DNA of 64,000 bases from positions 1-64,000 of the forward strand of contig NCRB01000013.1 of NCBI GenBank assembly GCA_002894665.1, written 5' to 3'. This stretch comes from Salinivenus iranica. GTDB taxonomy: Bacteria > Bacteroidota > Rhodothermia > Rhodothermales > Salinibacteraceae. The notes under the pieces were generated by a model that was not told the DNA's origin, did no database searches, and was given only the letters and a program-made list of their open reading frames with translations. Each line of letters begins with the position of its first letter. The stretch's first letter is position 1. Shown here piece after piece: positions 39,829 to 64,000 of the stretch. The position numbers were made by a program, and so were the translations under genes.

Positions 39829-42456
39829 TCATGAGGCCCTCGGATTCTCCCTGTCCTCCCCGGACCGGAGGACCGTCTCCGCCGCCGGGGCGCGCAGGTT
39901 GTACTCGTTGCTCATGCTTGCGCCGTAGGCGCCGGTGGTGGCAATGAGGAGCGTGTCTCCCGGGGCCGTGGGCGGGAGGCGGCGGCCGTGGCCCAGCACG
40001 TCTCCGCTCTCGCAGATGGGACCCACTACGGTGGCCGTCATGGACGGGGGCGTGTCGAGGCAGCTCAGGTTTACGATGCCGTGGTAGGCGCCGTAGAGGG
40101 CGGGCCGCAAGAGACTGTTCATGCCGGTGTCGAGCCCCACGTACTGCACCGGCCCCTTTGCCTTCGTCTGGGTAACGGTGGCGAGGAGCACGCCCGCCTC
40201 GGCCACGAGGTAGCGCCCCGGCTCCATCCAAAGATCATAGTGCGGATGCCGTTCGGCGAAGGTGGCGAGCCGATCGTCGAGGGCGTTGAGATCGAGTGCG
40301 GAATGGGAGGGGCGCTGCGGCACGCCCAGCCCGCCGCCCAGGTTAAGCGTCGTCACGTCCGGCAGGTCGGCGGCCAGGGTGTCGAGGAAGGTGGCGATGT
40401 CGGACCAGGTCTCTTCGTTGGTGATGCCGCTGCCCACGTGCACGTGCAGCCCCTCGACGGTGGCCCCGGCCCGCTCGGCGGCGGCGTGGAGGCGCTCCAG
40501 CTCGCCCGGCACCACGCCAAACTTCGACTGTGCCCCGGCGGTGCGCACCTTGCGGTGGTGGCCGTGCCCCTGCCCCGGATCGACCCGCACAAAGAGCGAC
40601 GCCCCGGCAAACGCGTCCGGGTGCTGGGCGAGGGGCTGCACGTTGTCGAGCGTCACGTGCACGCCCCGGTCGAGCGCCGCGGCGTACTCGTCGAGGGCCG
40701 CAAAGTTGGGCTGAAAGAGTACGCGGTCGGGGTCGAGGTCGGGCAGCACCTCGAAGACGCGGTCCACCTCGTCCGGCGACACGCACTCGAAGCCCAGGCC
40801 CTCCTCGTGCAGGATGCGCAGCACCTGGGGATGCGCGTTGGCCTTCACGGCGTAGAAGGTGCGGTCCGTCCCCCGCAGGGCCCGCATCCGCCGGGCCCGG
40901 TCACGCAGGGTGCCCTCGTGGTACACGTAGCGGGGCGACTGCTCGTCGGCAAGCCCGAGCAGGTCGTCGCGACGGGGGCGCCACCAGGTGTCGGGCTGGG
41001 GGCGCTCGGGGGCGGCCTCGGCCAGCTCCTGCCACCGCGGCCCCACGATGGCGCTTGGCGTCTCGCCCTCAAAAAACTGGGCGTGCAGGTCGCGCACGAG
41101 GCGAGGCGCCTGGTCCTCGTCCACCACGAAGCTAAAGTTGAGGTCGCTGGCCGCCTGCGAGACGAGGTGCACCTGCTGCTCGTCGAACACCTCGAAGGCG
41201 GGCCCCAGCTCCCCCAGCAGCGACCGGATGCGCTGCCCCACGAGGCTCACCACCGCGCAGGGGCGTATAATGCGGGCGTCGCAGTACTGGTTGAGGTCGT
41301 GCAACAGGCGGTCGAGGGCGTCGGGGTCGAGGGCGTTCGCGTCGGCATCGAGCGTGACGGTGACGTTGGCCTCGGAGGTCGCCACGAGGTCGACCGACAG
41401 GCCGTTGTGCTTGAAAATCTGGAAGACGTCGGCCAGGAAGCCCACCTCCTGCCACATCCCCAGCGTCTCCATGACGACGGCCACGACGCCGGTTTTGGCG
41501 GAGACGGCCTTCACCTGCGGCCCCACGTCCGCCCCGTCGGCCGAGACGACCGTGCCGTCGATCGTGGGCGCCTTGGTGCTGCGGACGTGCAGGGGGATCT
41601 GGTGGCGCCGGACGGGGTCGAGGCAGCGCGGGTGGAGCACGCGCGCCCCCATCGTCGCCAGCTCCTGGGCCTCATCGTAGTCGAGGCGGCGCAGCAGGCG
41701 GGCCGAGGGCACCTCGCGCGGGTTGGCGGTGAAGAGGCCGGGCACGTCGGTCCAGATCTCCAGGCGCTCGGCCTCCAGCTTGGCCGCAAAGTGGGCGGCG
41801 GAGGTGTCGGAGCCGCCGCGCCCCAGCAGCACGGTTTCGCTCAGGGCATTGCTGGCGATGAAGCCCTGCGTAAGGTAGACCGCGTCGGGCGCCTGGCCCA
41901 GGTGGTCCTGCAGGACGGGGTCGGGGGGCGAGGTGCAGGCGGCCGAGAGGTACTGGCGGCGGGGCGACACGTGGGGGGCGTCCTGGGCCCGCAGGAACTC
42001 GCGCGCGTCGAGCCAGCGCACGTCGAGCCCCTGCCCGGACAGGTAGGCGGCGCCGAGGCGCGTGGACAGCAGCTCGCCCGTGGCCAGGACCGCCGCCCGC
42101 AGGCGGGGCGGAAGGGGGTCCGCGTCGGTCGCCTCCCCCGTCAGCCGCTCCAGACGCTCGAACCCGTCCCCCAGCACCGCCGCCGGGTCCACCTCCATCG
42201 CCCGCGCCAGGGCCTCGTGCCGCTCGCGGATGGTGGCGAGGGGCTCCTGCGGGGCGCCCTCCGCGGCGGCGTCCAGCAGGGCCTCCAGTTGATCGGAGAT
42301 GCCCTGCAGGGCCGAGCAGACGAGGAACGGGTGGCGGCCGTCGGCCTGATGCGTGCGCACCACGTCGCCGATGGTGTCCCACCGGGCGCGGCTCGACACG
42401 CTCGTGCCGCCAAACTTACACACAATCCAGGAGGGCGAGGCGCTCGGCATATCCAA
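39829..42456 (-). CDS. lysAC: Bifunctional aspartate kinase / diaminopimelate decarboxylase
   Basis: An 875-residue fusion of the first and last enzymes of the lysine pathway. The N-terminal half is aspartate kinase (VCKFGGTSVSS nucleotide-binding entry, RGGSDTSAAHFA, then ACT regulatory domains to about residue 470). The C-terminal half (about 490-860) is PLP-dependent diaminopimelate decarboxylase. Its Schiff-base Lys is in FYAVKANAHP, the His-rich turn in HVHVGSGITN, the glycine phosphate clamp in LGGGLGVP, and the dimer-interface Cys motif in ICESGDVLG. Such fusions allow feedback control of both ends by lysine. The start at 42456 (MDMPSASPSW) is uncertain by two residues. The gene is divergent from dinB. 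Confidence 0.95.
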   Translation of the reverse strand: MDMPSASPSWIVCKFGGTSVSSRARWDTIGDVVRTHQADGRHPFLVCSALQGISDQLEALLDAAAEGAPQEPLATIRERHEALARAMEVDPAAVLGDGFERLERLTGEATDADPLPPRLRAAVLATGELLSTRLGAAYLSGQGLDVRWLDAREFLRAQDAPHVSPRRQYLSAACTSPPDPVLQDHLGQAPDAVYLTQGFIASNALSETVLLGRGGSDTSAAHFAAKLEAERLEIWTDVPGLFTANPREVPSARLLRRLDYDEAQELATMGARVLHPRCLDPVRRHQIPLHVRSTKAPTIDGTVVSADGADVGPQVKAVSAKTGVVAVVMETLGMWQEVGFLADVFQIFKHNGLSVDLVATSEANVTVTLDADANALDPDALDRLLHDLNQYCDARIIRPCAVVSLVGQRIRSLLGELGPAFEVFDEQQVHLVSQAASDLNFSFVVDEDQAPRLVRDLHAQFFEGETPSAIVGPRWQELAEAAPERPQPDTWWRPRRDDLLGLADEQSPRYVYHEGTLRDRARRMRALRGTDRTFYAVKANAHPQVLRILHEEGLGFECVSPDEVDRVFEVLPDLDPDRVLFQPNFAALDEYAAALDRGVHVTLDNVQPLAQHPDAFAGASLFVRVDPGQGHGHHRKVRTAGAQSKFGVVPGELERLHAAAERAGATVEGLHVHVGSGITNEETWSDIATFLDTLAADLPDVTTLNLGGGLGVPQRPSHSALDLNALDDRLATFAERHPHYDLWMEPGRYLVAEAGVLLATVTQTKAKGPVQYVGLDTGMNSLLRPALYGAYHGIVNLSCLDTPPSMTATVVGPICESGDVLGHGRRLPPTAPGDTLLIATTGAYGASMSNEYNLRAPAAETVLRSGEDRENPRAS

Positions 42457-52052: not shown

Positions 52053-52629
52053 AATCTGTCCCCGCGGATGCGGGGGCACCTGGTGGTACTTGCTCCTCTA
52101 CCTGGTGCCCTCCGGTCTATCCCCGCGGATGCGGGGGCACCTAGATAGTCGCACCCGCCACCCGGTCGATCAGGGGTCTATCCCCGCGGATGCGGGGGCA
52201 CCATGCGGAAGATGCCCTGTCCCACCTGCCCTTCGGGTCTATCCCCGCGGATGCGGGGGCACCGATCAGGGTGCGCTCTCCGCCGTCCGTCTCCAGGGTC
52301 TATCCCCGCGGATGCGGGGGCACCAGAGGAAGGGGAGGGAGCGCGTTGCATCGGCTGGGTCTATCCCCGCGGATGCGGGGGCACCACTATCGCCTGATGG
52401 ACTGGGCGCGCGAGTGGAGGTCTATCCCCGCGGATGCGGGGGCACCATCTTGCAGAATACGGACCACGGCACCGCATAGGGTCTATCCCCGCGGATGCGG
52501 GGGCACCCCCACCCCATCGACGGGCCACGGCAGCGTGCCGGGTCTATCCCCGCGGATGCGGGGGCACCCGGGACCACAGCGAGGGCTTTGTGCGGGCCCG
52601 GGGTCTATCCCCGCGGATGCGGGGGCACC
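52053..52629 (-). CRISPR. Type I-E CRISPR array, 10 repeats and 9 spacers
   Basis: The array has ten repeats at a strict 61-bp period. With a 28-nt repeat (plus-strand GGTCTATCCCCGC, GGAT loop, GCGGGGGCACC) the nine spacers are all 33 nt. Seven of nine spacers end in G, so a 29-nt repeat with 32-nt spacers is equally valid and matches the I-E standard. The repeat stem CCCCGC-GCGGGG is typical of I-E. Read on the minus strand it ends in ATAGACCC, the counterpart of the E. coli 5' handle ATAAACCG, so the array is transcribed leftward, away from cas2. Repeats 2-10 are identical. The leftmost (52053-52080) has three changes in its handle, as expected for the leader-distal end. Confidence 0.98.
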
Positions 52630-52809: not shown

Positions 52810-53217
52810 TCAGGAGGCCGCACCCATGCCTCCCATCGGCAGGGTGGGGTCCGCCTCGTCAATGGATACTTCCTCCACCTCCGCCTGCTCCAGCAGTTCC
52901 TCCACATTGTGGGCTTCCGTTAGATCGCGCAGCGTGCGCCACAGGCCCTCGTGCTCTATGAACTCTTTCTTGGGCCACCCCAGCATGCGGATCTGGAGGC
53001 CGGAGGGCGCGTCGGGATCCCGCCAGAAGAAGACCACGCCGGCGTCGTCGGGCAGCAGGCCCTCCCACTCCATCATCACGGCCCACACCCGCTCGCGGAC
53101 GGAGGTTGTCATGGTCGGGGCCACGTAGACGCCGGGGGCAATCTCCTGCATGCAGGAGCAGAGGAAGCCGTCGAACCGGCCGGGCGTATTACGCGTCACC
53201 GCGATGGTCATCGACAT
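52810..53217 (-). CDS. cas2: CRISPR-associated Cas2, type I-E
   Basis: A 135-residue Cas2 of the I-E (CasF/Cas2e) branch that forms the Cas1-Cas2 spacer integrase. The first 100 residues carry the family strings TIAVTRNTPGRFDGFLCSCM, EIAPGVYVAPTM and VWAVMMEWEGLLPDDAGVVF. The C-terminal 35 residues (EELLEQAEVEEVSIDEADP) form an acidic extension beyond the usual length of about 95-100. Start at 53217 or at the second ATG two codons on. It overlaps the end of cas1 by 29 bp and lies 180 bp before the array. Confidence 0.95.
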   Translation of the reverse strand: MSMTIAVTRNTPGRFDGFLCSCMQEIAPGVYVAPTMTTSVRERVWAVMMEWEGLLPDDAGVVFFWRDPDAPSGLQIRMLGWPKKEFIEHEGLWRTLRDLTEAHNVEELLEQAEVEEVSIDEADPTLPMGGMGAAS

Positions 53218-54082
53218 CGAGGACCTCCTTGATTTTGTCGATCATGTCGGGAATGACGTCGTCGTCGCGCAGCGTGCGGCCCGCGAGGCGGCGCGTGGTG
53301 CCTTCGATGCCGCGGTCGGGGCGTCGCTCAATCTTCTTTGCCGCGCGGAAGGCGATGGGGAGCGCCACGGAGCTGCGGAAGAGATCGGCCACGTCGAGCG
53401 CAAAGGCGTGCCCCGACGACTCGTGGATGAAGCCGAGCTCGGGCACGGTGCCGGTGACGGCCACCGCGATGCGGGCCGAGGCGTAGAGGGCCGTCACGGC
53501 GTGGTTGATGGCTTTGTTGACGGTGTCGTTCGACTCCGGGTCGTTGCGGTCGTAGCGGCGCCCGTTCCACTCCACCCCGTACTGGTCGGCCAGGTTCTGG
53601 TAGACTTTTTTGACGCGCCGCCCCTCAATGCCGCGGAGCGAATTGAGGTCGCGCTGATGGGCGGGCAGCTTGCCCCCGAGGCGGATGCGGTACATCTCGC
53701 GGGCCACGTCGATGCGCATCTCCTCATCCGCCCAGAGGGTGGCGTGACGGCGGGCGCGGTCGGCACTGTCGGGGCCGAAGGGCATGCTCACGGCGTAGAG
53801 GCGGACGCCCTTGGAGCCGACGGCGAGCAGGCCGGTGTCGCGCCGAGCCAGAATGCGAAGGGCGTCGTGGCTCACCACCCCGCCGGGCCCGAGCAGGATG
53901 TTGGAGACCTGCTGGTAGGGAATGTCGTAGGCGCCGGCCTCCAGGTCGTCGAACCCGGCCGTGGTAAAGACGAGGTTGCCGTCCTCGACGGCCAGGCGGC
54001 CTCGTTCTAGCCACATGAGGCCGTGGCGGTCGGCGTGCGGCACGCGGGCGGTTTCGAGGCCGAGGCGTCCCTTTAACGGCAT
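53189..54082 (-). CDS. cas1: CRISPR-associated Cas1, type I-E
   Basis: A 297-residue integrase nuclease of the spacer acquisition complex. The metal ligands expected from E. coli Cas1 (Glu141, His208, Asp221) correspond to Glu in NSLRGIEGRRV, His in LGFIHESSGH and Asp in FALDVADLFR. The start at ATG 54082 (MPLKGRLGLETARVPHADRH) fits the family; the frame upstream of it runs through repeat sequence. It lies 101 bp after the antitoxin gene and overlaps cas2. Confidence 0.96.
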   Translation of the reverse strand: MPLKGRLGLETARVPHADRHGLMWLERGRLAVEDGNLVFTTAGFDDLEAGAYDIPYQQVSNILLGPGGVVSHDALRILARRDTGLLAVGSKGVRLYAVSMPFGPDSADRARRHATLWADEEMRIDVAREMYRIRLGGKLPAHQRDLNSLRGIEGRRVKKVYQNLADQYGVEWNGRRYDRNDPESNDTVNKAINHAVTALYASARIAVAVTGTVPELGFIHESSGHAFALDVADLFRSSVALPIAFRAAKKIERRPDRGIEGTTRRLAGRTLRDDDVIPDMIDKIKEVLDVDDHRGDA

Positions 54083-54183
54083 TGGGGATTTTGGAATCTG
54101 GATTGGGGATTGGGCCGGTATTGCCGAGCCTTTCGCCGATGGACCCAATCGGTTCCGACAGGCCCAGAATTGCGAACAGGTCG
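54083..54183. repeat. Short tandem-repeat spacer inside the cas operon
   Basis: The gap before cas1 has the decamer ATTGGGGATT twice (54081-54090 and 54102-54111), interleaved with further GGATT units. The remaining sequence has no gene. One of several repeat-filled gaps in this operon. Confidence 0.6.
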
Positions 54184-54480
54184 TTATTCGGACTCGCTGG
54201 CACTCGCGGCTTTTTGTTCTTTCCCCTCTCGGACCGGTTGATAGTATCGGCTTTGCAGTTCGATTCCCTGAGCCACAGCCTGTTCAAGGATGTGCTGTAG
54301 CCGCTCGACCTCCTCGGCCGCAAGCAACGAATTGCCGCACACGTCGCATACAAGGGCCGGCACGTCTTTCACGACCACTACGGTGTCCCCTCGTTCAAGC
54401 GTTTCCGTGACCCCCCCCTTCTCATAGGTCCCTTCCGGACACTGCCGACAGGACTGCCCCGGGGTTAGGCTTGTCCCCAT
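54184..54480 (-). CDS. YgiT/MqsA-type zinc-finger antitoxin
   Basis: A 98-residue protein with an N-terminal zinc finger of two CxxC knuckles (CRQCPEG and LVCDVCGNSLL) around a beta-rich core (TETLERGDTVVVVKDVPA), typical of YgiT-type MqsA antitoxins. The C-terminal helix (EEVERLQHILEQAVAQGIE) has no full HTH domain, so DNA binding may be weak. The start was placed at ATG 54480 (MGTSLTPGQSC), 16 bp inside the toxin gene; upstream ATGs at 54513 and 54531 are possible. It is encoded immediately after a DUF4258 toxin, the common partner, and both lie between cas6e and cas1. Confidence 0.88.
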   Translation of the reverse strand: MGTSLTPGQSCRQCPEGTYEKGGVTETLERGDTVVVVKDVPALVCDVCGNSLLAAEEVERLQHILEQAVAQGIELQSRYYQPVREGKEQKAASASESE

Positions 54481-54824
54481 GTGTTCGTCTCGCTGGTCCA
54501 CGTCCGTTTCCATCGGAATTGATCCGTCCATTGACTGGGATCGGGCTCGTAGGCAGTGGTGACGGTCGTGCGTTGTGCTTCGTCCTTGTTGGAGGTTACG
54601 ACATGAACAGGCCGCCCCCGGTCGTAGGTCCCAAATGTGGCCTCACGATCCGTCCGTGTAAGAAGAAGCCGGGCTGTAGGGGTCGTTTCTGGATAGACTC
54701 CAAGCACAGTCCCCTTCTGCAAGGCCTGGATCACTTCGTCTACGGTGATGTCGCGATCGATCAAGGCGCGCCGGGCATCGCCGGTAAAGGCGATGTCCGC
54801 ATACGGCTCAGGTCGGGAGAGCAT
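54465..54824 (-). CDS. DUF4258-domain toxin
   Basis: A 119-residue protein of the DUF4258 family, an MqsR/RelE-like fold found as the toxin beside YgiT-type antitoxins. Family strings are FTGDARRALIDRDITVDEVI, VLGVYPETTPTARLLL, RPVHVVTSNKDEAQRTTV and TAYEPDPSQWTDQF. The active residues are not established for this group; members are presumed mRNA interferases. The gene starts 50 bp after cas6e and its end overlaps the antitoxin gene, so both are translationally linked. Confidence 0.86.
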   Translation of the reverse strand: MLSRPEPYADIAFTGDARRALIDRDITVDEVIQALQKGTVLGVYPETTPTARLLLTRTDREATFGTYDRGRPVHVVTSNKDEAQRTTVTTAYEPDPSQWTDQFRWKRTWTSETNTWGQA

Positions 54825-54874: not shown

Positions 54875-55657
54875 CTAGGCCCGTCGCACCTTGAGCATGC
54901 CATAGCCGAAGCTCTTGTGGCGCCCGAGGCCGGAGCGGAGGAGGTCGACGAAGGCATCGCCGTCGGTGACCCGGAGCGTGCCGGTGAGCGTCACGTCGGG
55001 GCGCTTGATGGTGTCGGCCTTGCGCTCGCCACTTTCGGTTTTCGGCACGCGGCGCGTCATGCGCTCGATGGAGAAGCGGGTCATGCCGATGGATTGCGGC
55101 TCGGCCCCGCCGCGGATGTCGAACTGGCGCGTCAGCCAGTCGCGGTAGACCTGCTCGCGGGAGAGATCATCCTCTTCGGGCCGCGTCCAGGCTTCGGCGA
55201 GGAACGCGTCGAGCTCATCTCCTTCCTCCCACGTGCGCCTCTCGCCGTTCTGGTTCACGCCCGTCCCTGCGGACGCCTTGCGGACGACGGGACAGGCGCG
55301 AAGTTCGAACTGGAGCGCCATGCCCTCGGGGAAGGTCTGGGGCATCGGCTTGGCGGCGAGGCCGTCCCAGTCGCAGATCTCGTAGACCGTGGGGCTGGCG
55401 TCGAGCTGGGCGTTGGCCTGGAGCGTCTCGGCATCGGCCGTGGTGTAGCCGAGCACGCGCACCCGGCGGCCGTTCTGGGTCTCGTTCTCGATGCTGAACG
55501 GCTGGGGCGCGTTGTCCTGGAAAAGTTCGCCGAGGGCACAGTGGACGAGATAGCCGGTGTCGGTTTGGGCGAGGGGCAGGCGCAGCATCTTGCCGAGGGT
55601 GGTAAGGCCCTTGGCGTCGAGGCCGAGCTGCACCATGTGAAACTCCGAATCGGACAT
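54875..55657 (-). CDS. cas6e: CRISPR-associated Cas6e (crRNA endoribonuclease)
   Basis: A 260-residue RAMP-fold nuclease that cuts the pre-crRNA at each repeat hairpin and stays on the 3' end in Cascade. The N-terminal ferredoxin-like half contains the likely catalytic His39 in YLVHCALGELFQ, at the position used by I-E Cas6 enzymes. The C-terminal glycine-rich loop SGLGRHKSFGYGMLKVRR binds the RNA stem. It starts 25 bp after cas5e, and after it come the toxin-antitoxin genes instead of cas1. Confidence 0.95.
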   Translation of the reverse strand: MSDSEFHMVQLGLDAKGLTTLGKMLRLPLAQTDTGYLVHCALGELFQDNAPQPFSIENETQNGRRVRVLGYTTADAETLQANAQLDASPTVYEICDWDGLAAKPMPQTFPEGMALQFELRACPVVRKASAGTGVNQNGERRTWEEGDELDAFLAEAWTRPEEDDLSREQVYRDWLTRQFDIRGGAEPQSIGMTRFSIERMTRRVPKTESGERKADTIKRPDVTLTGTLRVTDGDAFVDLLRSGLGRHKSFGYGMLKVRRA

Positions 55658-55682: not shown

Positions 55683-56441
55683 TTACGTCTGAGGTCGGAC
55701 AGTGCCGTTCACAATCCATCGCTCGCCGACGTGGATCTGGTTCTTCCAGTCGCGCCGGTCGGTGACGGGCTCGCGCAGGTCCACGTCCCGGTGGTCGTCG
55801 GATGGGTCGTCGGCGTCCGGATGGGTGGGCCACCACGCCGAGTACAAGGGGCCGTCGTCCGCGCGGTCGTGAAGGGGGGCCTGTACGAGGGCGTCAGATA
55901 GGCTGTCGGCCTCCATTCGACCGGCCAACAACGAGTCGGCGGGCAGGCACGGCTTGCGGCCGAGGAAGAGGGGACGCGCCGGGTGCTTCACCGCCGCCGC
56001 CAGGTCGTCGAGCGTCGGCGATTCGTCTGCCGGGTCCAGCGTGACGGCGACGGTGTGGACGGCGTCGGCCCAGTAGTCGCGGTAGCGCAGTAGCGGTCCC
56101 CGGTCTCCCTTTTTGTTCTGATTGGTGCGGTTTTCGAGCTTCCCATCTGTCGTCCAGGCTCGGCTTTCTCGTCCATAAGCACGCATATGTGGCTGGGAGA
56201 TGTCCACGGTTTGAAAGTCCTCGATCTGACGCCCCCGCCGGTCCTGGCGGGAGGCGTAGCGGAGGCGCTCCTGGAGGCGCTCCAGCCGGTCGAACTCGCT
56301 GTGATCGACTCCCAGCGCGTTGCCCAGCAGGCCCGTCATCATGGACAGCGCCGGGTAGGGCTGAATCTCGCCCTGGTTGTCCACGATGGGGGCGCCGAAG
56401 CTCATCAGCGGCGCGTCGAAGCGGAGCAGGAAAACGTCCAT
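55683..56441 (-). CDS. cas5e: CRISPR-associated Cas5e
   Basis: A 252-residue Cascade subunit that holds the 5' handle of the crRNA. The N terminus DVFLLRFDAPLMSFGAPIVD, the LSMMTGLLGNALG helix and the GRKPCLPADSL loop are typical of I-E Cas5 (CasD). The family also shows an acidic C-terminal insert here (HPDADDPSDDHRDVDL). The start at 56441 is fixed by the conserved N terminus. It lies 167 bp after cas7e, and the gap carries a hairpin. Confidence 0.95.
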   Translation of the reverse strand: MDVFLLRFDAPLMSFGAPIVDNQGEIQPYPALSMMTGLLGNALGVDHSEFDRLERLQERLRYASRQDRRGRQIEDFQTVDISQPHMRAYGRESRAWTTDGKLENRTNQNKKGDRGPLLRYRDYWADAVHTVAVTLDPADESPTLDDLAAAVKHPARPLFLGRKPCLPADSLLAGRMEADSLSDALVQAPLHDRADDGPLYSAWWPTHPDADDPSDDHRDVDLREPVTDRRDWKNQIHVGERWIVNGTVRPQT

Positions 56442-56608: not shown

Positions 56609-57877
56609 TCATTGCTTGGACTGGATCTGGTTCGCGGTCCACTCGGCAATGTTGGGCACCGTCGTCGTGTCCTCCACCTTCACGCGGTCGGTGAGTGCCT
56701 CCGTCGGTCCCATCGCCGCGAGGCGGCGGTCGGTCTGCACGCCGTACATCTGGTCGATCTCGTCGACGTATTGCCCCAGCTTCTCGTAGCTGTTTTCCAG
56801 CACGTTCTCGGTTGAGGCAGGTTTTTGGAACGCGTTGGCCAGCGTGCGCGGCTGGGCGGTGCCGGCCTCCGCAAAGAGACACTGCGCGTACGAGTAGGGG
56901 GCGGTGGAGCCGAGCATGGCCCCCGGCGACACCGTGGCCATCAGGTGCGTGAATCGCTGCATGACCTCGGCGGCGAGGTCGGTGTTGCCGTCGGTCCACG
57001 CGTCCTGCTCCACGCCCGAGAGATTGGACACGAGCAGCGGCACGTCCACGACGACGTAGCTGTAGAAGAGGCCGCTCGTGAGCTCCTGTGTGTTGATGTG
57101 TCCGGCACCCAGCTCGCCGCTTTCCTCCGGCTCGTCCCGTCGCAACTCGTCGACGGCCGAGAAGTAGTCGCTTTCGCTTTCCTGGGCGTGCGTGGTGAAG
57201 GCGTGGGCCACGTGCACGGCGGCGTCGCCCCGGGCCAGCACATCGCTCGTGGCCATCCGGCCAAACATGGCGGCGTCGAGGCCGCTGGCGAGTTCAAGGC
57301 CCTTCAGGTTCTTCTTGAGGTCGCGCTTTGAAATGTCGCGCATCGCGTCCGCCGCGTCTTTGACGGCATCGCTGTCCGGCTCGCCGTCTTCGTCCCAGAA
57401 CACCGGGAAGTCGTCTTTTGCATCCTCAATCATTCCGGCAGCCAACTCGCGCAGGTACCGCATCTCCGGCACGCCGAAGATGGTCACCTGATTGGTGTCG
57501 ATCATCTCCCGCGGAGTGTCGTCCTCGTCGGGATCGATGAGGGTCTTCAGGTCGCGTTTTCCGGCCTTGCTGTCGGACAGGAGGCGTTCCTTGAGGGCGA
57601 ACGTCACGGCGCGGACGAGCGGAGCCGGGTGGCCGTCGTCGATGAGCGGCCGGGCGAGACGGCGCCAGAACGTTTCCCGCGAGCGCAGGGATTCCGGCAC
57701 GTCCATGTCGTAGAGGGCGTGCTCCCCGTCGAAATTTCTCCAATGATACTTCAGGCACTGCGAGGAGACGCGCGTTCGGGTGGCACCGCCGAAGGGCAGT
57801 TGCTTCGCAAAGCCCGCGTCGTCGCGATTCAACAGGGTGCTCGGATAGGAAGTCAGCGCGTGGAGTTGGATGAACAT
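56609..57877 (-). CDS. cas7e: CRISPR-associated Cas7e (Cascade backbone)
   Basis: A 422-residue protein that polymerises along the crRNA as the Cascade backbone. The N terminus MFIQLHALTSYPSTLLNRDD, the thumb region with LPFGGATRTRVSSQCLKYHW and the DTNQVTIFGVPEMRYL part identify the I-E Cas7 (CasC) family. The central insert is longer and more acidic than in E. coli CasC (363 residues), as expected in a salt-adapted protein. It starts 58 bp after cse2. Confidence 0.95.
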   Translation of the reverse strand: MFIQLHALTSYPSTLLNRDDAGFAKQLPFGGATRTRVSSQCLKYHWRNFDGEHALYDMDVPESLRSRETFWRRLARPLIDDGHPAPLVRAVTFALKERLLSDSKAGKRDLKTLIDPDEDDTPREMIDTNQVTIFGVPEMRYLRELAAGMIEDAKDDFPVFWDEDGEPDSDAVKDAADAMRDISKRDLKKNLKGLELASGLDAAMFGRMATSDVLARGDAAVHVAHAFTTHAQESESDYFSAVDELRRDEPEESGELGAGHINTQELTSGLFYSYVVVDVPLLVSNLSGVEQDAWTDGNTDLAAEVMQRFTHLMATVSPGAMLGSTAPYSYAQCLFAEAGTAQPRTLANAFQKPASTENVLENSYEKLGQYVDEIDQMYGVQTDRRLAAMGPTEALTDRVKVEDTTTVPNIAEWTANQIQSKQ

Positions 57878-57935: not shown

Positions 57936-58502
57936 TCAGTCTTCGTCTTGAGCGTGGAGGGTGTGGTAGTAGGGGCGGGCGATGCTCAGTCGGATGCCCT
58001 CGGCCGTCTCGCCGGACTGGTAAAAGAGCAGTTTGCGCACGTCGTCCCAGTTGGCCGGCTGCTGTTTGCTGGCGAGGTATTGGGCCATGCGGCGGAGGAG
58101 GACCGGCAGGGTCTCGTCGTCGGCCTCCAGGAGCCGCACGAAGCGGGTTTCGGCCCATCCGGCTTCGGCCAGCGCCTGTCCGAGGGGCACGTCGTAGTCG
58201 TGCAGGCCCGCGCAGTGGGCCATGCCCATCAGGAGGGTGGCCCAGCGCTGCTCCCATTTCGTCTGGGAGATCCAGTCGGGGGCCTCGTCCTGCTTCAGGT
58301 CGAACAGCACTTTCCAGAGCGTGGGGGTGACGGGTGTGTCCAGGTCGATGCGGCGGAGGGCAGCCCGATCCCCGTTCGGGAGTGCTCCCTCGTCGGGATG
58401 GAGCATCCCCGCGGCCCGGCCGACGGCTTGGGATGGGGAGATCGGAGCGTCTTCGTTACTCTCGGTGTCGAGTGATGTCTCTATATCTGGAGGCGGAGGC
58501 AT
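57936..58502 (-). CDS. cse2: CRISPR-associated Cse2 (Cascade small subunit)
   Basis: A 188-residue helical small subunit of Cascade. The family strings RRIDLDTPVTPTLWKVLF, WATLLMGMAHC and ADDETLPVLLRRMAQYLAS with the C-terminal DDVRKLLFYQSG are clear. The first 30 residues are acidic and variable (ETSLDTESNEDAPIS). It lies 212 bp after cse1 rather than the usual overlap or few bases, because repeat elements fill the gap. Confidence 0.93.
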   Translation of the reverse strand: MPPPPDIETSLDTESNEDAPISPSQAVGRAAGMLHPDEGALPNGDRAALRRIDLDTPVTPTLWKVLFDLKQDEAPDWISQTKWEQRWATLLMGMAHCAGLHDYDVPLGQALAEAGWAETRFVRLLEADDETLPVLLRRMAQYLASKQQPANWDDVRKLLFYQSGETAEGIRLSIARPYYHTLHAQDED

Positions 58503-58583: not shown

Positions 58584-58717
58584 TGAAGAAAATGGCTGAC
58601 GCTGCTACGGACTCCACTGAAATTCGGGGAACTCCCGCTTCCTTGTTCGGAAGCGCTCAGACATCCCGAATTTTGATCGTTTCGTCCTCCGCAGCCTCCG
58701 AGCCGCCATTTTCTTCA
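58584..58717. repeat. Nested inverted-repeat element overlapping the cse1 stop
   Basis: Outer arms TGAAGAAAATGGC (58584-58596) and GCCATTTTCTTCA (58705-58717), middle arms AAATTCGGG (58620-58628) and CCCGAATTT (58665-58673), and inner hairpin CGCTTCC-TTGTTC-GGAAGCG (58636-58655) share nearly one centre. The 134 bp can fold into one long imperfect hairpin. The right end contains the TGA stop of cse1. It looks like a MITE-sized insertion; no target-site duplication is obvious. Confidence 0.65.
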
Positions 58718-60295
58718 AGGCCGTGGCACGTTTGATTCTGAAGTAGGAGAGGAATTCGCAGGCTTGGAAGAGCTCGATTCTGAATCGGTGAAGGCGTATT
58801 TGAGGGTGTCGCGGGCGCTGCCGTGGAAGATCGTGCGGGCGCTGCTGCGGGCTTTCCAGTAGCGGGTGGCCGTGCTGGGGGCGTGGTCCTTGGCGTCGTC
58901 GAACTGGACCTGGGCCTCCTCCCAGAGCAGCGATTCCCAGTGGCGTCGCGCCTCGGTGTCGTCCAGGTCGACGGACGCCCACAGCGCTTCAAAGAATCGG
59001 GCGTCGACGGCACGGTCGAAGGCATCGAGCCAGGGGGACACGTCGTCGAACTCAATGGCGTCGGTGTCGCCCCCGCCCAGCAGCGTGCCAATGGCCGGAT
59101 AAAGCACTGTGCGGCGTACCTCATCCATCATTTCGACCCGATCGCGGGCCCGCTCTCCCAGCTTTTCGCGTCGAGATTTTTTCCGGAGCCAGCCGGACGC
59201 CGAATCGGGGACCGGCACGATGCGGTGGTGCAGGCCTTCGGTCTTGCCCTGCCCGCGCACCAGCGCCCGAGCGACGACATACATGTGTCCGTCGTCGGAA
59301 TCTCGGAACTGGAGCGCCGGCGGCGGGGCGTACTCGCCTGCGAAGACGATATTCTGCAATCGGTCGTAGGTAAAGCCCTCGCCCGGCAGCGTCAGGGCCT
59401 TGCCGCCGCTTTTCTCGATCGGGGTCCACGGATCCCCGGTATCGCCATTGAGCGAGTCGGGCGCGTCGACGCGCTGGCCCTTCGTGTTGGCCCGCCAGCA
59501 GACGAGGTCCCCATTGTCTTCTTGAAACCGGATGCGACGGCAGATTTCGAGAAAGTAGGGGTCGCAGTCCGCGAGCGGGATCGCGCTGTCTTTGGCCCCG
59601 TCCCACGGCCGAGTCCAGAGCAGGGCCGGCCCGTTGAGGGTGTACCGTTCGGACAAGGTGTTGCGCTCGTTCAGCAGCACATCCACGTCGCGCTTGAAGT
59701 GGTCTGCCCAGGACAGATCCGGCGAAAGGCCCACGAGGGGCCGGTTGCCGAACCCCCCGTTCATTCTTACGACCCCATAATTGCCCCGTCCCAGAAAGCC
59801 CTCCATCGTTTGCAGCGTCACGACCGCGTAGATCCAGTGCTCGGGGTCCGGGTGCCGGATGCGGCGGGCCTTCACGTCGTGGCTCTTCGACGTGATGAGG
59901 ACGTCCAGTTGATCGGGCGTGGGCACGTCGGCCTTGTACCCGGCGTCGTCGAGCGAGCCCTCCGGTACCGGCGACTGGAAGAAGGCGGGCCGCGACTCAT
60001 CCGCCACCACCAGGTGCCAGGCGGCCTCGTCGCCGTCGGCCAGTCCGACCAGGGCGTCGCGCCACGGGGCAACGGTATCCGGGGGTGTGCCGCCGGTCTC
60101 CCGAGCGACGGCCATCGCGGCCAGCTGGACGAGGAAGCTGTGCCAGGCCTGCTGCTGGTGCGCTTGCAGGGCCTCGAAGCTCAAAATATTGTCCTGCGTG
60201 AGCCGATGCAGGATCTGCGGCAGGGACTGACCCTGCACCGTGTTGTCCGGGAGGCGCACCCGCAGAAGCGGGTCGTCGAGCAGCGAGTACATCAT
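58715..60295 (-). CDS. cse1: CRISPR-associated Cse1 (Cascade large subunit)
   Basis: A 526-residue large subunit that recognises the PAM and would recruit Cas3. The start is the double ATG at 60295 (MMYSLLDDPLLRVRLPDNTV). Signature regions are SLPQILHRLTQDNILSFEAL, AMAVARETGG, the ARRIRHPDPEHW segment and the RDSDDGHMYVVARALVRGQG part. The C-terminal helical bundle is present to about residue 500. The last about 20 residues (DSESSSSKPANSSPTSESN) are Ser-rich and unlike the family, and the stop codon lies in the arm of an inverted-repeat element, so the original end may have been replaced. No cas3 lies upstream. Confidence 0.94.
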   Translation of the reverse strand: MMYSLLDDPLLRVRLPDNTVQGQSLPQILHRLTQDNILSFEALQAHQQQAWHSFLVQLAAMAVARETGGTPPDTVAPWRDALVGLADGDEAAWHLVVADESRPAFFQSPVPEGSLDDAGYKADVPTPDQLDVLITSKSHDVKARRIRHPDPEHWIYAVVTLQTMEGFLGRGNYGVVRMNGGFGNRPLVGLSPDLSWADHFKRDVDVLLNERNTLSERYTLNGPALLWTRPWDGAKDSAIPLADCDPYFLEICRRIRFQEDNGDLVCWRANTKGQRVDAPDSLNGDTGDPWTPIEKSGGKALTLPGEGFTYDRLQNIVFAGEYAPPPALQFRDSDDGHMYVVARALVRGQGKTEGLHHRIVPVPDSASGWLRKKSRREKLGERARDRVEMMDEVRRTVLYPAIGTLLGGGDTDAIEFDDVSPWLDAFDRAVDARFFEALWASVDLDDTEARRHWESLLWEEAQVQFDDAKDHAPSTATRYWKARSSARTIFHGSARDTLKYAFTDSESSSSKPANSSPTSESNVPRP

Positions 60296-60799
60296 GGACT
60301 GTGGAGCGAGGGGGCTGCAGAAATGAGCGAGAAGGAAGTGCGTCCACCAAGATAGGGATCCAGTTTTCTAGGGCGGACATTCTGTGTCCGGGATAAAAAT
60401 TACTCGTCTACCATCTGCACAAGATCGAGGGGGTGATAGGGTGTGAGGGCCGTCGACATAGAATCGGATTCGTTTCGGGTTGCGACGGCAGAAGCGCCGG
60501 CTGCCGCCCCGGCAGCGGCAAGGTAGCCGTCCTCAAAGTCCTCAGTTCGAGGTGCGCCCGAAAAGTTGGACTGGTGACCCGACTAAGACTGAGGTTGGGA
60601 CGCAGGACGCTTAGTTTCCTGTAAACCACGACCAATCCAACCACACGCCCGCCGGTGAACTGAACGCTTGCGCTTGCGAACGCTTGCGAGGGGATGACCA
60701 GTCCCCATCGAGACTAGTCTCTACCGAAACCGGTCCCTACCGAAACCGCCCCACCGAAACCGCTCCCTGTAGTTTTCCCACTAAGGTTCTTCCAGGTAG
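60296..60799. other. Intergenic region upstream of cse1, where cas3 is expected
   Basis: No gene is supported. A minus-strand frame of 60 codons (60582-60403) ends AVATRNESDSMSTALTPYHP then LDLVQMVDE and looks protein-like. It has no recognisable family and no start beyond a late ATG at 60459. An inverted repeat CGGACA-TTCTG-TGTCCG (60374-60390) lies about 80 bp before cse1 and may be an operator. The cas promoter must be here. No HD-nuclease or DEAD-helicase motif is present. Confidence 0.5.
60662..60762 (+). repeat. Direct repeats before the GGDEF-EAL gene
   Basis: An 11-mer GAACGCTTGCG occurs at 60662 and 60678. Nearer the gene, ACCGAAACCG occurs three times (60723, 60739 and 60753), 38-77 bp before the start codon. 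The spacing of 16 and 14 bp suggests repeated contacts by a regulator; this is inference. Confidence 0.6.
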
Positions 60800-63115
60800 A
60801 TGTCCTATCCCGTTCCGGAACATGAAGAGACGCGCCTGAAAGCACTGGGGCGGCTCAACATCCTCGGTACAGATTCGGAGGAGAAGTTCGACCAGGTCGC
60901 AGATACTGCCAGGGAGTTTTTGGGAACGAAATACTCGGCTCTCAACTTCATTTCCGACGACCTGCAGTGGTCGAAAGCTTCCTGCAGGATCGACGTTGGC
61001 GAGGTCCCCCGCGAGGACTCTTTCTGTGCCCACGTGGTCGGAGAAGACCAGATGCTCGTAGTCGAGGATACCGAGTCCGACCAGCGGTTTGCCAACAATC
61101 CCCAGGTCACCGGTTTTCCGCATATCCGCTCTTACGCAGGCGCCCCCCTCACGGTACAAGGACAAAACGTGGGAACGCTTTGCGTCTTCGACGACCAGCC
61201 TCGCTCGTTTACGGAAAAAGATCGCGGGCTTCTCAGGGAACTCGCCACGCTTGTCACCGAGCTGTTGAAGGCCCGTCTCCAGACCTACCAGGTTCAGTAC
61301 CTCAGTTCGGCCCTGGAGCAGGTCGACGAGCCGGTGTCGGTCATTGAGGGGGACCCGGATACTCCCTCGCAGATGGAGATCACCTGGGTCAACCAGGCTT
61401 ACGTCGCGTCAGTAGGCGCCGATCGGGAGGCCCTCGTGGGCACGATCCCTTGGATCTTCGAGGAGCTGGAGACCGGCTCGGAGATGCGAACCGAGGTCCG
61501 AAGTGCCCTCCAGGACGAGAGGTCTCTCAGGGGCGAAACCAGCGGCAGACCAGAGGAAGAGGCCCCTTACTACGTGGCATGGCTGCTAGCTCCGGTCCGC
61601 GATGAGGAAGGGCAGGTGACCCACTGGATCTTGGTTCAGCGCGACATCACCGACCGTAGGGTCCGAGAAGAGCAGCTCGAATACAGGGCCACTCACGACC
61701 CGCTCACCGGGCTTCTCAACCGGTCTGCCATCGAAGAACAGGTCCAGAGGGCGATCCACACGGAGGGAGAGGCCGGGGCGCTTCTCTACCTGGATCTCGA
61801 TAAGTTCAAGCAGGTGAACGATACTTACGGGCACAGCGCCGGGGATCAGCTTCTGAAGCAGGTCGCCGGCGTGCTCAGGGAGGCCCTTCGCAAGCGAGAT
61901 GCCGTCGGGCGAGTCGGAGGAGACGAGTTTGTAGCCTGGTTTTCTCCTCCGATCGACGGGGAGACGGCCGAGCGAATCACCGAGCGCATCATCGGGGCCT
62001 TCGACGAGCCTTTCGACATTCACGGCGAGCATCTGCTTGTCGACTTCGGCATCGGGCTGGTCCAGGACATATCGCCCTACAATACCGCGGAAGCTGCTCT
62101 TGAAGACGCGGACATCGCGATGTACGAGGCCAAGCAGTCTCCTGACCGGACGTACGTGGCCCACGATCCAGTCAGGACCGATCCGACTGGGGCAGCTGGG
62201 GCCGAGGGGAACGGGACCGAGGGAGCCGAGGACGGAGTAGCCGGAAGCGGGGTAGGCAGGAGCGGGGTAGGCGGGAGCGGGGTGGCAGGGGCCAGGGAAC
62301 CTCGGAACGGAACCCCCTCTTCCCAGCGGCGCCTCAGCCCACTGATCCAGGAGGCCACGGAGGAAGGAGGATTTGAGACGTTTCTTCACCCGATTGTGCG
62401 CCTGTCGGATGGCACGCTGGCGGGATTCGAGGTGCTGGCTCGGTGGCGTCGGCACAACGGAGAGCTGGCGCCTCCGGGCGACTTTCTTGAGGTCGCGGAA
62501 GAGACAGGCCTCATCGTCCCCATTGGCCGGCAGGTTCTAGAGGGGGGCTGTCAGGCCCTCCAGAAGCTCCGGGACGGAGCGGCCTCAGACCTCTCCGTGA
62601 CTTTGAGCGGCAACTTTTCGCGGCGGGAGTTTTTCCAGAAAGAAACCTACGAGTTCATCGACCGCATGCTCGACACCTACGGGATCCCCTCCGGCAATTT
62701 TACGATGGAGATCACCGAACGGCTCACCGAAGACGAATCGGAGGGCGACTCGATGCCGGTGGAGGAGCTCAAGTCCCTTGGCGTCAACGTTGAGATCGAC
62801 GACTTTGGGACGGGATATTCGTCCCTTCACTCCCTGATGGAATTTCCCGCCGATGGGCTAAAGATCGACAAGGGCCTAACCGCTGAAATCGCGACGGGCC
62901 AACGAGGACACAACATCGCCCGGTCGGTTATTGAGATGGGCCGCTCCCTGGACCTCTACGTGACCGCCGAAGGCATTGAGACCCCGGAACAGCTGTCGGT
63001 GCTTCGCGAGCTTGGCTGTCACTACGGGCAAGGATTCCTGTTCTCCGAACCCGTGCCCGTCGAGGAGGCGGAATCCCTGGCGAACACGTTCCCGCGGGAC
63101 CTTTTGTCCCTGTGA
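60800..63115 (+). CDS. GAF-PAS-GGDEF-EAL cyclic-di-GMP enzyme
   Basis: A 771-residue soluble signalling protein. A GAF domain (about 25-160) and a PAS domain (about 170-290) precede a diguanylate cyclase domain (about 300-455) with intact GRVGGDEFVAW and an inhibitory RxxD site (RKRD) five residues before it. A Gly/Ser/Val-rich linker encoded by three 15-bp repeats follows. The phosphodiesterase domain (about 505-765) keeps its metal and catalytic residues: GFEVLARW, SGNFS, EITER, DDFGTGYSS, LKID, EGIE and YGQGFLF. Both activities therefore look possible, so the net effect on cyclic-di-GMP depends on the sensed signal. Confidence 0.94.
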   Translation: MSYPVPEHEETRLKALGRLNILGTDSEEKFDQVADTAREFLGTKYSALNFISDDLQWSKASCRIDVGEVPREDSFCAHVVGEDQMLVVEDTESDQRFANNPQVTGFPHIRSYAGAPLTVQGQNVGTLCVFDDQPRSFTEKDRGLLRELATLVTELLKARLQTYQVQYLSSALEQVDEPVSVIEGDPDTPSQMEITWVNQAYVASVGADREALVGTIPWIFEELETGSEMRTEVRSALQDERSLRGETSGRPEEEAPYYVAWLLAPVRDEEGQVTHWILVQRDITDRRVREEQLEYRATHDPLTGLLNRSAIEEQVQRAIHTEGEAGALLYLDLDKFKQVNDTYGHSAGDQLLKQVAGVLREALRKRDAVGRVGGDEFVAWFSPPIDGETAERITERIIGAFDEPFDIHGEHLLVDFGIGLVQDISPYNTAEAALEDADIAMYEAKQSPDRTYVAHDPVRTDPTGAAGAEGNGTEGAEDGVAGSGVGRSGVGGSGVAGAREPRNGTPSSQRRLSPLIQEATEEGGFETFLHPIVRLSDGTLAGFEVLARWRRHNGELAPPGDFLEVAEETGLIVPIGRQVLEGGCQALQKLRDGAASDLSVTLSGNFSRREFFQKETYEFIDRMLDTYGIPSGNFTMEITERLTEDESEGDSMPVEELKSLGVNVEIDDFGTGYSSLHSLMEFPADGLKIDKGLTAEIATGQRGHNIARSVIEMGRSLDLYVTAEGIETPEQLSVLRELGCHYGQGFLFSEPVPVEEAESLANTFPRDLLSL
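62246..62290 (+). repeat. Three 15-bp tandem repeats in the GGDEF-EAL linker
   Basis: Three consecutive 15-bp units beginning AGCGGGGT encode SGVGR/SGVGG/SGVAG-like peptides. Unit length is a multiple of three, so copy changes would lengthen or shorten the linker without a frameshift. Confidence 0.8.
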
Positions 63116-63238
63116 GGATTCGGAGATGCGAATCCCAACGAGACGCAGTGGACCGAAACGGACTCGAATGGAGTGTCCGTGACTACATCTTGTCACTGCT
63201 GCCCAGACGACTCACCCCCAACGGTGGACTGAGCTCTC

Positions 63239-63655
63239 ATGCCCGTCTTGCAGGACCAGTCATTTGAAGGCGCTTCCGTGCTGCTGGCGATTGAGCACTC
63301 GGCCAGCGCGCAGCTTCTCGCGGATCGGCTGGGCCGCCGCGACGTGCAGACCGAGCGCGTGCAGAACGGGAACGACGCCCTGGATACCATCGAGGATGCG
63401 CCCCTCGACCTCATGGTCGCCCAAACGCGCCTGCCGGGCCGCACGGGGCTCGAACTGCTTCGGCAGCTCCCACATCTCAAGCCTGCCATCATCTTGCTGG
63501 GGCGAGAAGGCAATGACGAGGTGATCGTGCGGGCCTTCGAGTTCGGGGCGGCCGACTACATCACGCGCCCGTTTTCTCCCAGCGTCGCCGTGGCGCGGAT
63601 TCTCCGGTTCCTCACGATCCCGGACGCCCTCGCATCTGCGCCTTCTCCGAATTGA
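63239..63655 (+). CDS. Pseudo-receiver protein (REC fold without phospho-site)
   Basis: A 138-residue single-domain protein with the receiver fold, but key residues are replaced. The acidic pair of the pocket (normally DD) is EH in VLLAIEHSASA, the phospho-acceptor Asp is Gln in LMVAQTRLPGRTG, and the conserved Lys is Arg in ADYITRPFSP. The fold pattern otherwise holds (LPGRTGLELLRQL, GNDEVIVRAFEFGAADYI). It therefore probably cannot be phosphorylated and may act by protein binding. It lies 123 bp after the GGDEF-EAL gene and 90 bp before a membrane protein gene on the same strand, so the three may form an operon. Confidence 0.88.
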   Translation: MPVLQDQSFEGASVLLAIEHSASAQLLADRLGRRDVQTERVQNGNDALDTIEDAPLDLMVAQTRLPGRTGLELLRQLPHLKPAIILLGREGNDEVIVRAFEFGAADYITRPFSPSVAVARILRFLTIPDALASAPSPN

Positions 63656-63745
63656 CCCTGTGTTTCCAGTGTAGTGGCATTTTGGCCTGTGCCATTTTTG
63701 GGCAATGTCCTCCGGGTTGGGCACGTCTCCCGTATCGGGACGGCC

Positions 63746-64000
63746 ATGCTCTTTCTGGAGGGAATATTTGGGGAGAGCTCGGGCGTTCTGTGGGCCCTGA
63801 TCATCGCGTCCGGTGTTTTGACAATCCTTTCCCTCACGTTGGTGATTACGGCGGTCGTGGCCCATCTCCTTTCGAAGAGGCGAACGCAGACCCGCCAGCG
63901 CGACCTAGAGCGATGGCAACAGACGCTCCTGGACATCCTTGCGGGGGACACGCCTCCGGAGACGCTTTCTGATCAGGTGGAGGCGTCTCAGCGGCGCCGG
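63746..64000 (+). CDS. Membrane-anchored protein, cut by the window edge
   Basis: The open frame from ATG 63746 runs to the window end without a stop (85 codons seen). It begins MLFLEGIFGESSGVLWALII, forms one strong membrane helix (VLWALIIASGVLTILSLTLVITAVVAHLL) and continues as a charged, helical cytosolic part (SKRRTQTRQRDLERWQQTLL, ILAGDTPPETLSDQ). The rest of the protein is outside the window. By layout it could be a HEAT-repeat or signalling scaffold protein as often found beside receivers in this group, but this is a guess. Confidence 0.7.
   Translation, partial: MLFLEGIFGESSGVLWALIIASGVLTILSLTLVITAVVAHLLSKRRTQTRQRDLERWQQTLLDILAGDTPPETLSDQVEASQRRR

Follow-up and report, generated by a model that had tools for sequence, protein, structure and literature searches.

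The closest described relatives of this locus are the type I-E systems of E. coli and S. avermitilis, in both of which cas3 is set apart from the remaining genes: cas3 and the Cascade operon form separate transcription units in E. coli (PMC10359306), and the active system of S. avermitilis carries cas3 in an operon apart from cse1-cas2 (PMC4762764). Two other cases have also been described. In the Corynebacterium I-E variants (I-Ea/I-E'), a CRISPR array lies between cas3 and cse1 (PMC9944170), and an insertion sequence (IS) is documented to have transposed naturally into the cas locus of a type I-E system, duplicating its target site (PMC10359306, Nat Commun 2023).

The locus analysed here shares with the E. 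coli and S. avermitilis systems the set of eight cas genes and their order, I-E families throughout, 28-bp repeats and 33-bp spacers, and a cas3 in its own transcription unit. It differs from them in the IS-bounded segment of about 15 kb that very probably parts cas3 from cse1, in a DnaQ-like gene ahead of cas3, and in toxin-antitoxin-like genes placed between the cas genes. As in the Corynebacterium variants, cas3 and cse1 are not directly adjacent; however, the separator in Corynebacterium is an array, in a stable lineage arrangement, whereas here it is mobile DNA found in one genome and absent from its relatives. In comparison with the documented IS case (PMC10359306), the insertion here struck a toxin gene that is not a cas gene and stands between two units, which leaves every cas frame unbroken, and it carries a 13.55-kb cargo. 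IS insertions in cas loci (PMC10359306) and separators between cas3 and cse1 (PMC9944170) are already known; the case is an ordinary one.

The CRISPR-Cas operon and array

The window, that is, the whole stretch of 64,000 nucleotides that was analysed, takes up positions 1-64000 of C25, a contig of 74,302 bp in a draft genome (G000; 3.4 Mb, 133 contigs). Its seven cas genes are all intact open frames on the minus strand that match type I-E families: cse1 (cas8e; 58715..60295; TIGR02547; PADLOC Cas8e E 7.6e-153), cse2 (cas11e; 57936..58502; TIGR02548), cas7e (56609..57877; TIGR01869), cas5e (55683..56441; TIGR01868), cas6e (54875..55657; TIGR01907), cas1e (53189..54148; TIGR03638) and cas2e (52810..53217; TIGR01873, PF09707). 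Cas8e, Cas11e, Cas7e, Cas5e and Cas6e all scored above the curated NCBIfam cut-offs, and PADLOC concurred. Cas1e and Cas2e adjoin a minus-strand CRISPR array (52053..52629) in which 10 repeats of 28 bp (GGTGCCCCCGCATCCGCGGGGATAGACC) alternate with nine spacers of 33 bp; its leader is on the cas2 side, and mismatches among the repeats are confined to the last of the 10. The family matches and the 10 regular repeats thus bear out the original prediction that the Cascade and adaptation genes are intact and the array well kept.

The spacers found no match in the phages collection, and an IMG/VR scan of eight 22-nt spacer starts returned a single match (28/33 bases). No spacer is common to this array and that of the close relative G013, despite flanks that are ~96% identical, which reveals turnover of spacers since the lineages diverged, be it before or after the insertion. 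At C101:about 41250-41474 there is another short array, and its I-E repeat (GGTAGCCCCGCATCCGCGGGGATAGACC) is nearly identical.

Small toxin-antitoxin-like genes lie between the cas genes at two places (window 54184-54824 and C73:1304-2535) and vary among relatives; the pairs seen at the I-E locus are DUF6364/RHH with PIN, DUF4160 with DUF2442, and DUF4258 with a Cys-rich ORF. The last of these occupies the interval between cas6e and cas1e, where the DUF4258 gene (54465..54824, minus strand; PF14076) pairs with a small Cys-rich ORF (54184-54531) that has no Pfam match. The two are probably a toxin-antitoxin-like pair.

Cas3 proteins of the genome

The absence of cas3 from the 64 kb, as originally predicted, holds within the window: a genome-wide search with the Cas3 HD family identified two loci only, on contigs C73 (type I-E) and C46 (type I-C), both outside it. 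The gene on C73 (C73:2536-5148, minus strand) encodes a protein of 870 aa that matches the Cas3 HD family with E = 2.7e-30 and whose best score in PADLOC is Cas3e (E = 1e-167). It is composed of HD and helicase domains (PF18019, PF22590, DEAD) and a C-terminal Cas3 domain, and residues 25-737 align to the solved Cas3 chains 4q2c and 4qqw. The HD, Walker-A, DEVH, SAT and motif VI (QRIGR) stretches are all present and the frame has no internal stops; the genome thus encodes a type I-E Cas3 with an HD nuclease and an SF2 helicase. Measured against two orthologues from the same genus, dN/dS was ~0.14 for cas3 and 0.12 for cse1. These values indicate purifying selection on cas3, over an estimate that spans the time since divergence and may mostly predate the insertion.

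The original prediction had offered, among other options, that the system works by binding or silencing without cleavage. The position of cse1 in the window, with no cas3 adjacent to it, is what such a Cas3-free system would present, but the genome does encode an intact Cas3e, and at this very locus, with the low dN/dS given above. In addition, no full spacer match was found in the host genome outside the CRISPR arrays, and hence no native silencing target. We consider a system confined to binding or silencing highly improbable.

The second locus, C46:122000-135000, holds cas3, cas5-like and cas8-like genes of a type I-C system. Its Cas3 scores as Cas3c, whereas the Cas5c-like and Cas8c-like neighbours were named from their reading frames rather than by profile. 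The existence of this gene raises the option that the I-C Cas3 supplies interference in trans to the I-E Cascade. Against this, the neighbours of Cas3c are, by their reading frames, its own system's Cas5c-like and Cas8c-like genes, and the genome has a type I-E Cas3 as well; supply from the I-C locus is extremely improbable.

The interval between cse1 and cas3

The 504-bp gap upstream of cse1 (60296-60799), in which a remnant of cas3 had been proposed as something to look for, contains the 3' remnant of a PIN-type toxin gene (60403..60548, minus strand; ~45 codons) and an IS end; a cas3 remnant was ruled out on these contents. The first part of the toxin gene lies on C73 at about 1305-1550, between the IS and cas3, and the antitoxin gene (ribbon-helix-helix/DUF6364) is whole on C73, beside cas3 and the first part of the toxin gene. 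In G022 and G014, of the same genus, the toxin gene is whole (in G014 as an intact PIN_3 protein), and the order is dnaQ-cas3-antitoxin-PIN_3 toxin-cse1. With the split the locus has lost its toxin gene; the antitoxin gene is still whole.

The cut in the toxin gene is marked by a duplicated GTTC, with the left copy at 60545..60548 (no strand assigned) and the right copy at C73:1305-1308; the relatives have a single GTTC. Next to the left copy is the truncated left end of an IS3-family element (about 60548..60648, plus strand), a 101-bp repeat that recurs in direct orientation at about C25:74204-74302 and runs into C73:1-58. At the cut on C73 we identified an IS3-family transposase with an rve core. 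The assignment to the IS3 family is based on two overlapping frames (an orfB with HTH_21, rve and rve_3, and an orfA-like frame), on related terminal inverted repeats, GAGGTGCGCCCGAA and GGATGTGTGCCCGAA, at opposite ends, and on the GTTC duplication. Further copies of this IS are found on C56 and C90.

The segment may be a composite transposon, in which two IS copies bound a cargo and move with it as a unit; on one side it is bounded by no more than the 101-bp IS left end and on the other by a complete IS. Its cargo of 13.55 kb, of which the first 3.4 kb fall within the window (60649..64000, plus strand), continues past the window to C25:74203, where the complete IS follows, for a total insertion of ~15.0 kb. 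Within the window the cargo encodes a GAF-PAS-GGDEF-EAL protein (60800-63115), a receiver-domain protein (63239-63655) and the start of a HEAT-repeat protein; beyond the window are a glycosyltransferase, a sulfatase-TPR protein, a YaiO-type beta-barrel and a PAS histidine kinase. Taken together, these genes look like an exopolysaccharide cluster under c-di-GMP control. Elsewhere in the genus we identified only partial relatives of the cargo (66-76% DNA identity), and a search for the segment as one unit gave no second occurrence.

C25 ends with the same 56 bases with which C73 starts, and this exact overlap falls inside the IS3-family element. In G013, a single contig (G013:C13) carries the flank corresponding to the C73 side (94-96% identity) and that corresponding to the C25 side (96%) around one I-E locus, with flank identity of 94-98% DNA overall. 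Read in order, that contig has the C73 flank, in which dnaQ and codons 1-43 of this cas3 are included, then another I-E effector cassette, cas1-cas2, an array and the C25 flank. One and the same I-E locus is therefore enclosed by the far sides of C25 and C73. The join itself is drawn from the contig ends, and the G013 locus confirms that the two contigs adjoin. The collinearity of the two flanks in G013 also ruled out C73 as assembly contamination. Across the join, cse1 and cas3 are ~16.5 kb apart on the same strand, and cas3 begins 12.8 kb past the window end. A cas3 close to the end of the window and an assembly break, either of which the original prediction had named as undoing a Cas3-less reading, are thus both present, and the absence of cas3 from the window results from the window end and the insertion rather than from a property of the genome.

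The comparison with related strains that had been suggested identified cas3 beside cse1, with a gap of about 0.6-1.7 kb, in seven genomes (G014, G022, G023, G011, G003, G002 and G006). Direct adjacency is the usual arrangement and not a requirement, and the window genome, with its ~16.5 kb, departs from it. G021 was dropped as a second cas3-less case; its cse1 lies <450 bp from a contig end, which makes it uninformative.

A gene for a DnaQ-like DEDDh exonuclease, at 5288-5818 on C73, is directly upstream of cas3 in 13/14 family genomes with this I-E cas3 clade, and a second I-E clade has no adjoining DnaQ-like gene. DEDDh exonucleases are already listed as CRISPR-associated in PADLOC, and the DnaQ-like protein is a candidate prespacer-trimming partner; it is a more interesting side observation than the split operon. 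Replacement of I-E effector cassettes is seen in G013 and G017, where remnants of the clade-A cas3 lie beside another I-E cas3, as the first 43 codons in the former (G013:C13:44001-62000) and as a broken copy with the toxin-antitoxin pair in the latter. Two different I-E systems, with Cas3 about 47% identical, stand back to back within a few kb in G022:C48 and G023:C1.

Proposed displacement of cas3 and probable retention of interference

The explanation that we hold to be very likely is that an IS-bounded insertion of ~15 kb in the PIN toxin gene displaced an intact cas3 within an ordinary type I-E system. It draws on features read directly from the DNA: cas3 is present and intact, the toxin gene is split, the IS ends and the direct repeat are there, the contig ends overlap, and a close relative shares the locus. 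The segment would have entered the toxin gene with a 4-bp target duplication, GTTC, and would have widened the distance between cas3 and cse1 from ~1 kb to ~16.5 kb, with cas3 on the same strand and at the same chromosomal locus. The suggestion that cas3 has moved thus stands as regards a displacement of ~15 kb, but the gene keeps its orientation and its chromosomal locus.

An alternative topology would have a simple IS of ~1.35 kb in the toxin gene, with cas3 ~3 kb from cse1, the 13.55-kb cargo elsewhere or circular, and C25 mis-joined at the 101-bp repeat. Such a repeat does offer an assembler a branch, and the GTTC duplication fits equally well. However, C25 continues without a break from the first copy of the repeat into the cargo, and its end lies in the second copy, where it overlaps C73. 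The presence of the repeat at both sites is expected for a 13.55-kb segment with an IS end at its left and a complete IS at its right. The cargo ORFs showed no replication gene, which makes a free circle unlikely. We regard the simple insertion as unlikely; under either topology cas3 is present at this locus, and under the simple one it is even closer to cse1.

With the ~15-kb insertion as the preferred reading, the array and the seven genes of the window would constitute the downstream operon, the array giving rise to crRNA and the seven-gene unit to Cascade. Cas3 would be made from its own upstream unit and recruited in trans by target-bound Cascade. As a diffusible protein recruited in this way, Cas3 most likely still acts with Cascade; we infer that both halves of the split locus are expressed, and interference is probably retained. 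The original prediction had also raised the loss of interference, which would follow if one half of the locus were no longer expressed because of the insertion. The insertion does part cas3 from the cse1 operon, and no promoter motif came up in a limited search upstream of cse1. Against this stand the separate units of E. coli (PMC10359306), the active S. avermitilis system with its cas3 in another operon (PMC4762764), the frames of every cas gene here, which remain open, and the intact cas3 with its dN/dS of ~0.14. Loss of interference is, in our estimate, unlikely. It is quite unlikely that the insertion uncoupled control of Cas3 from that of Cascade, in which case Cascade may bind targets, and the system adapt, without cleavage under some conditions.

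The analysis removes a false case of a Cas3-less type I-E system, and it illustrates how calling a gene absent from a single window or contig goes wrong where mobile DNA has disrupted the locus as well as the assembly. It also presents an insertion tolerated in an accessory toxin gene of a CRISPR locus, with every cas frame undamaged.
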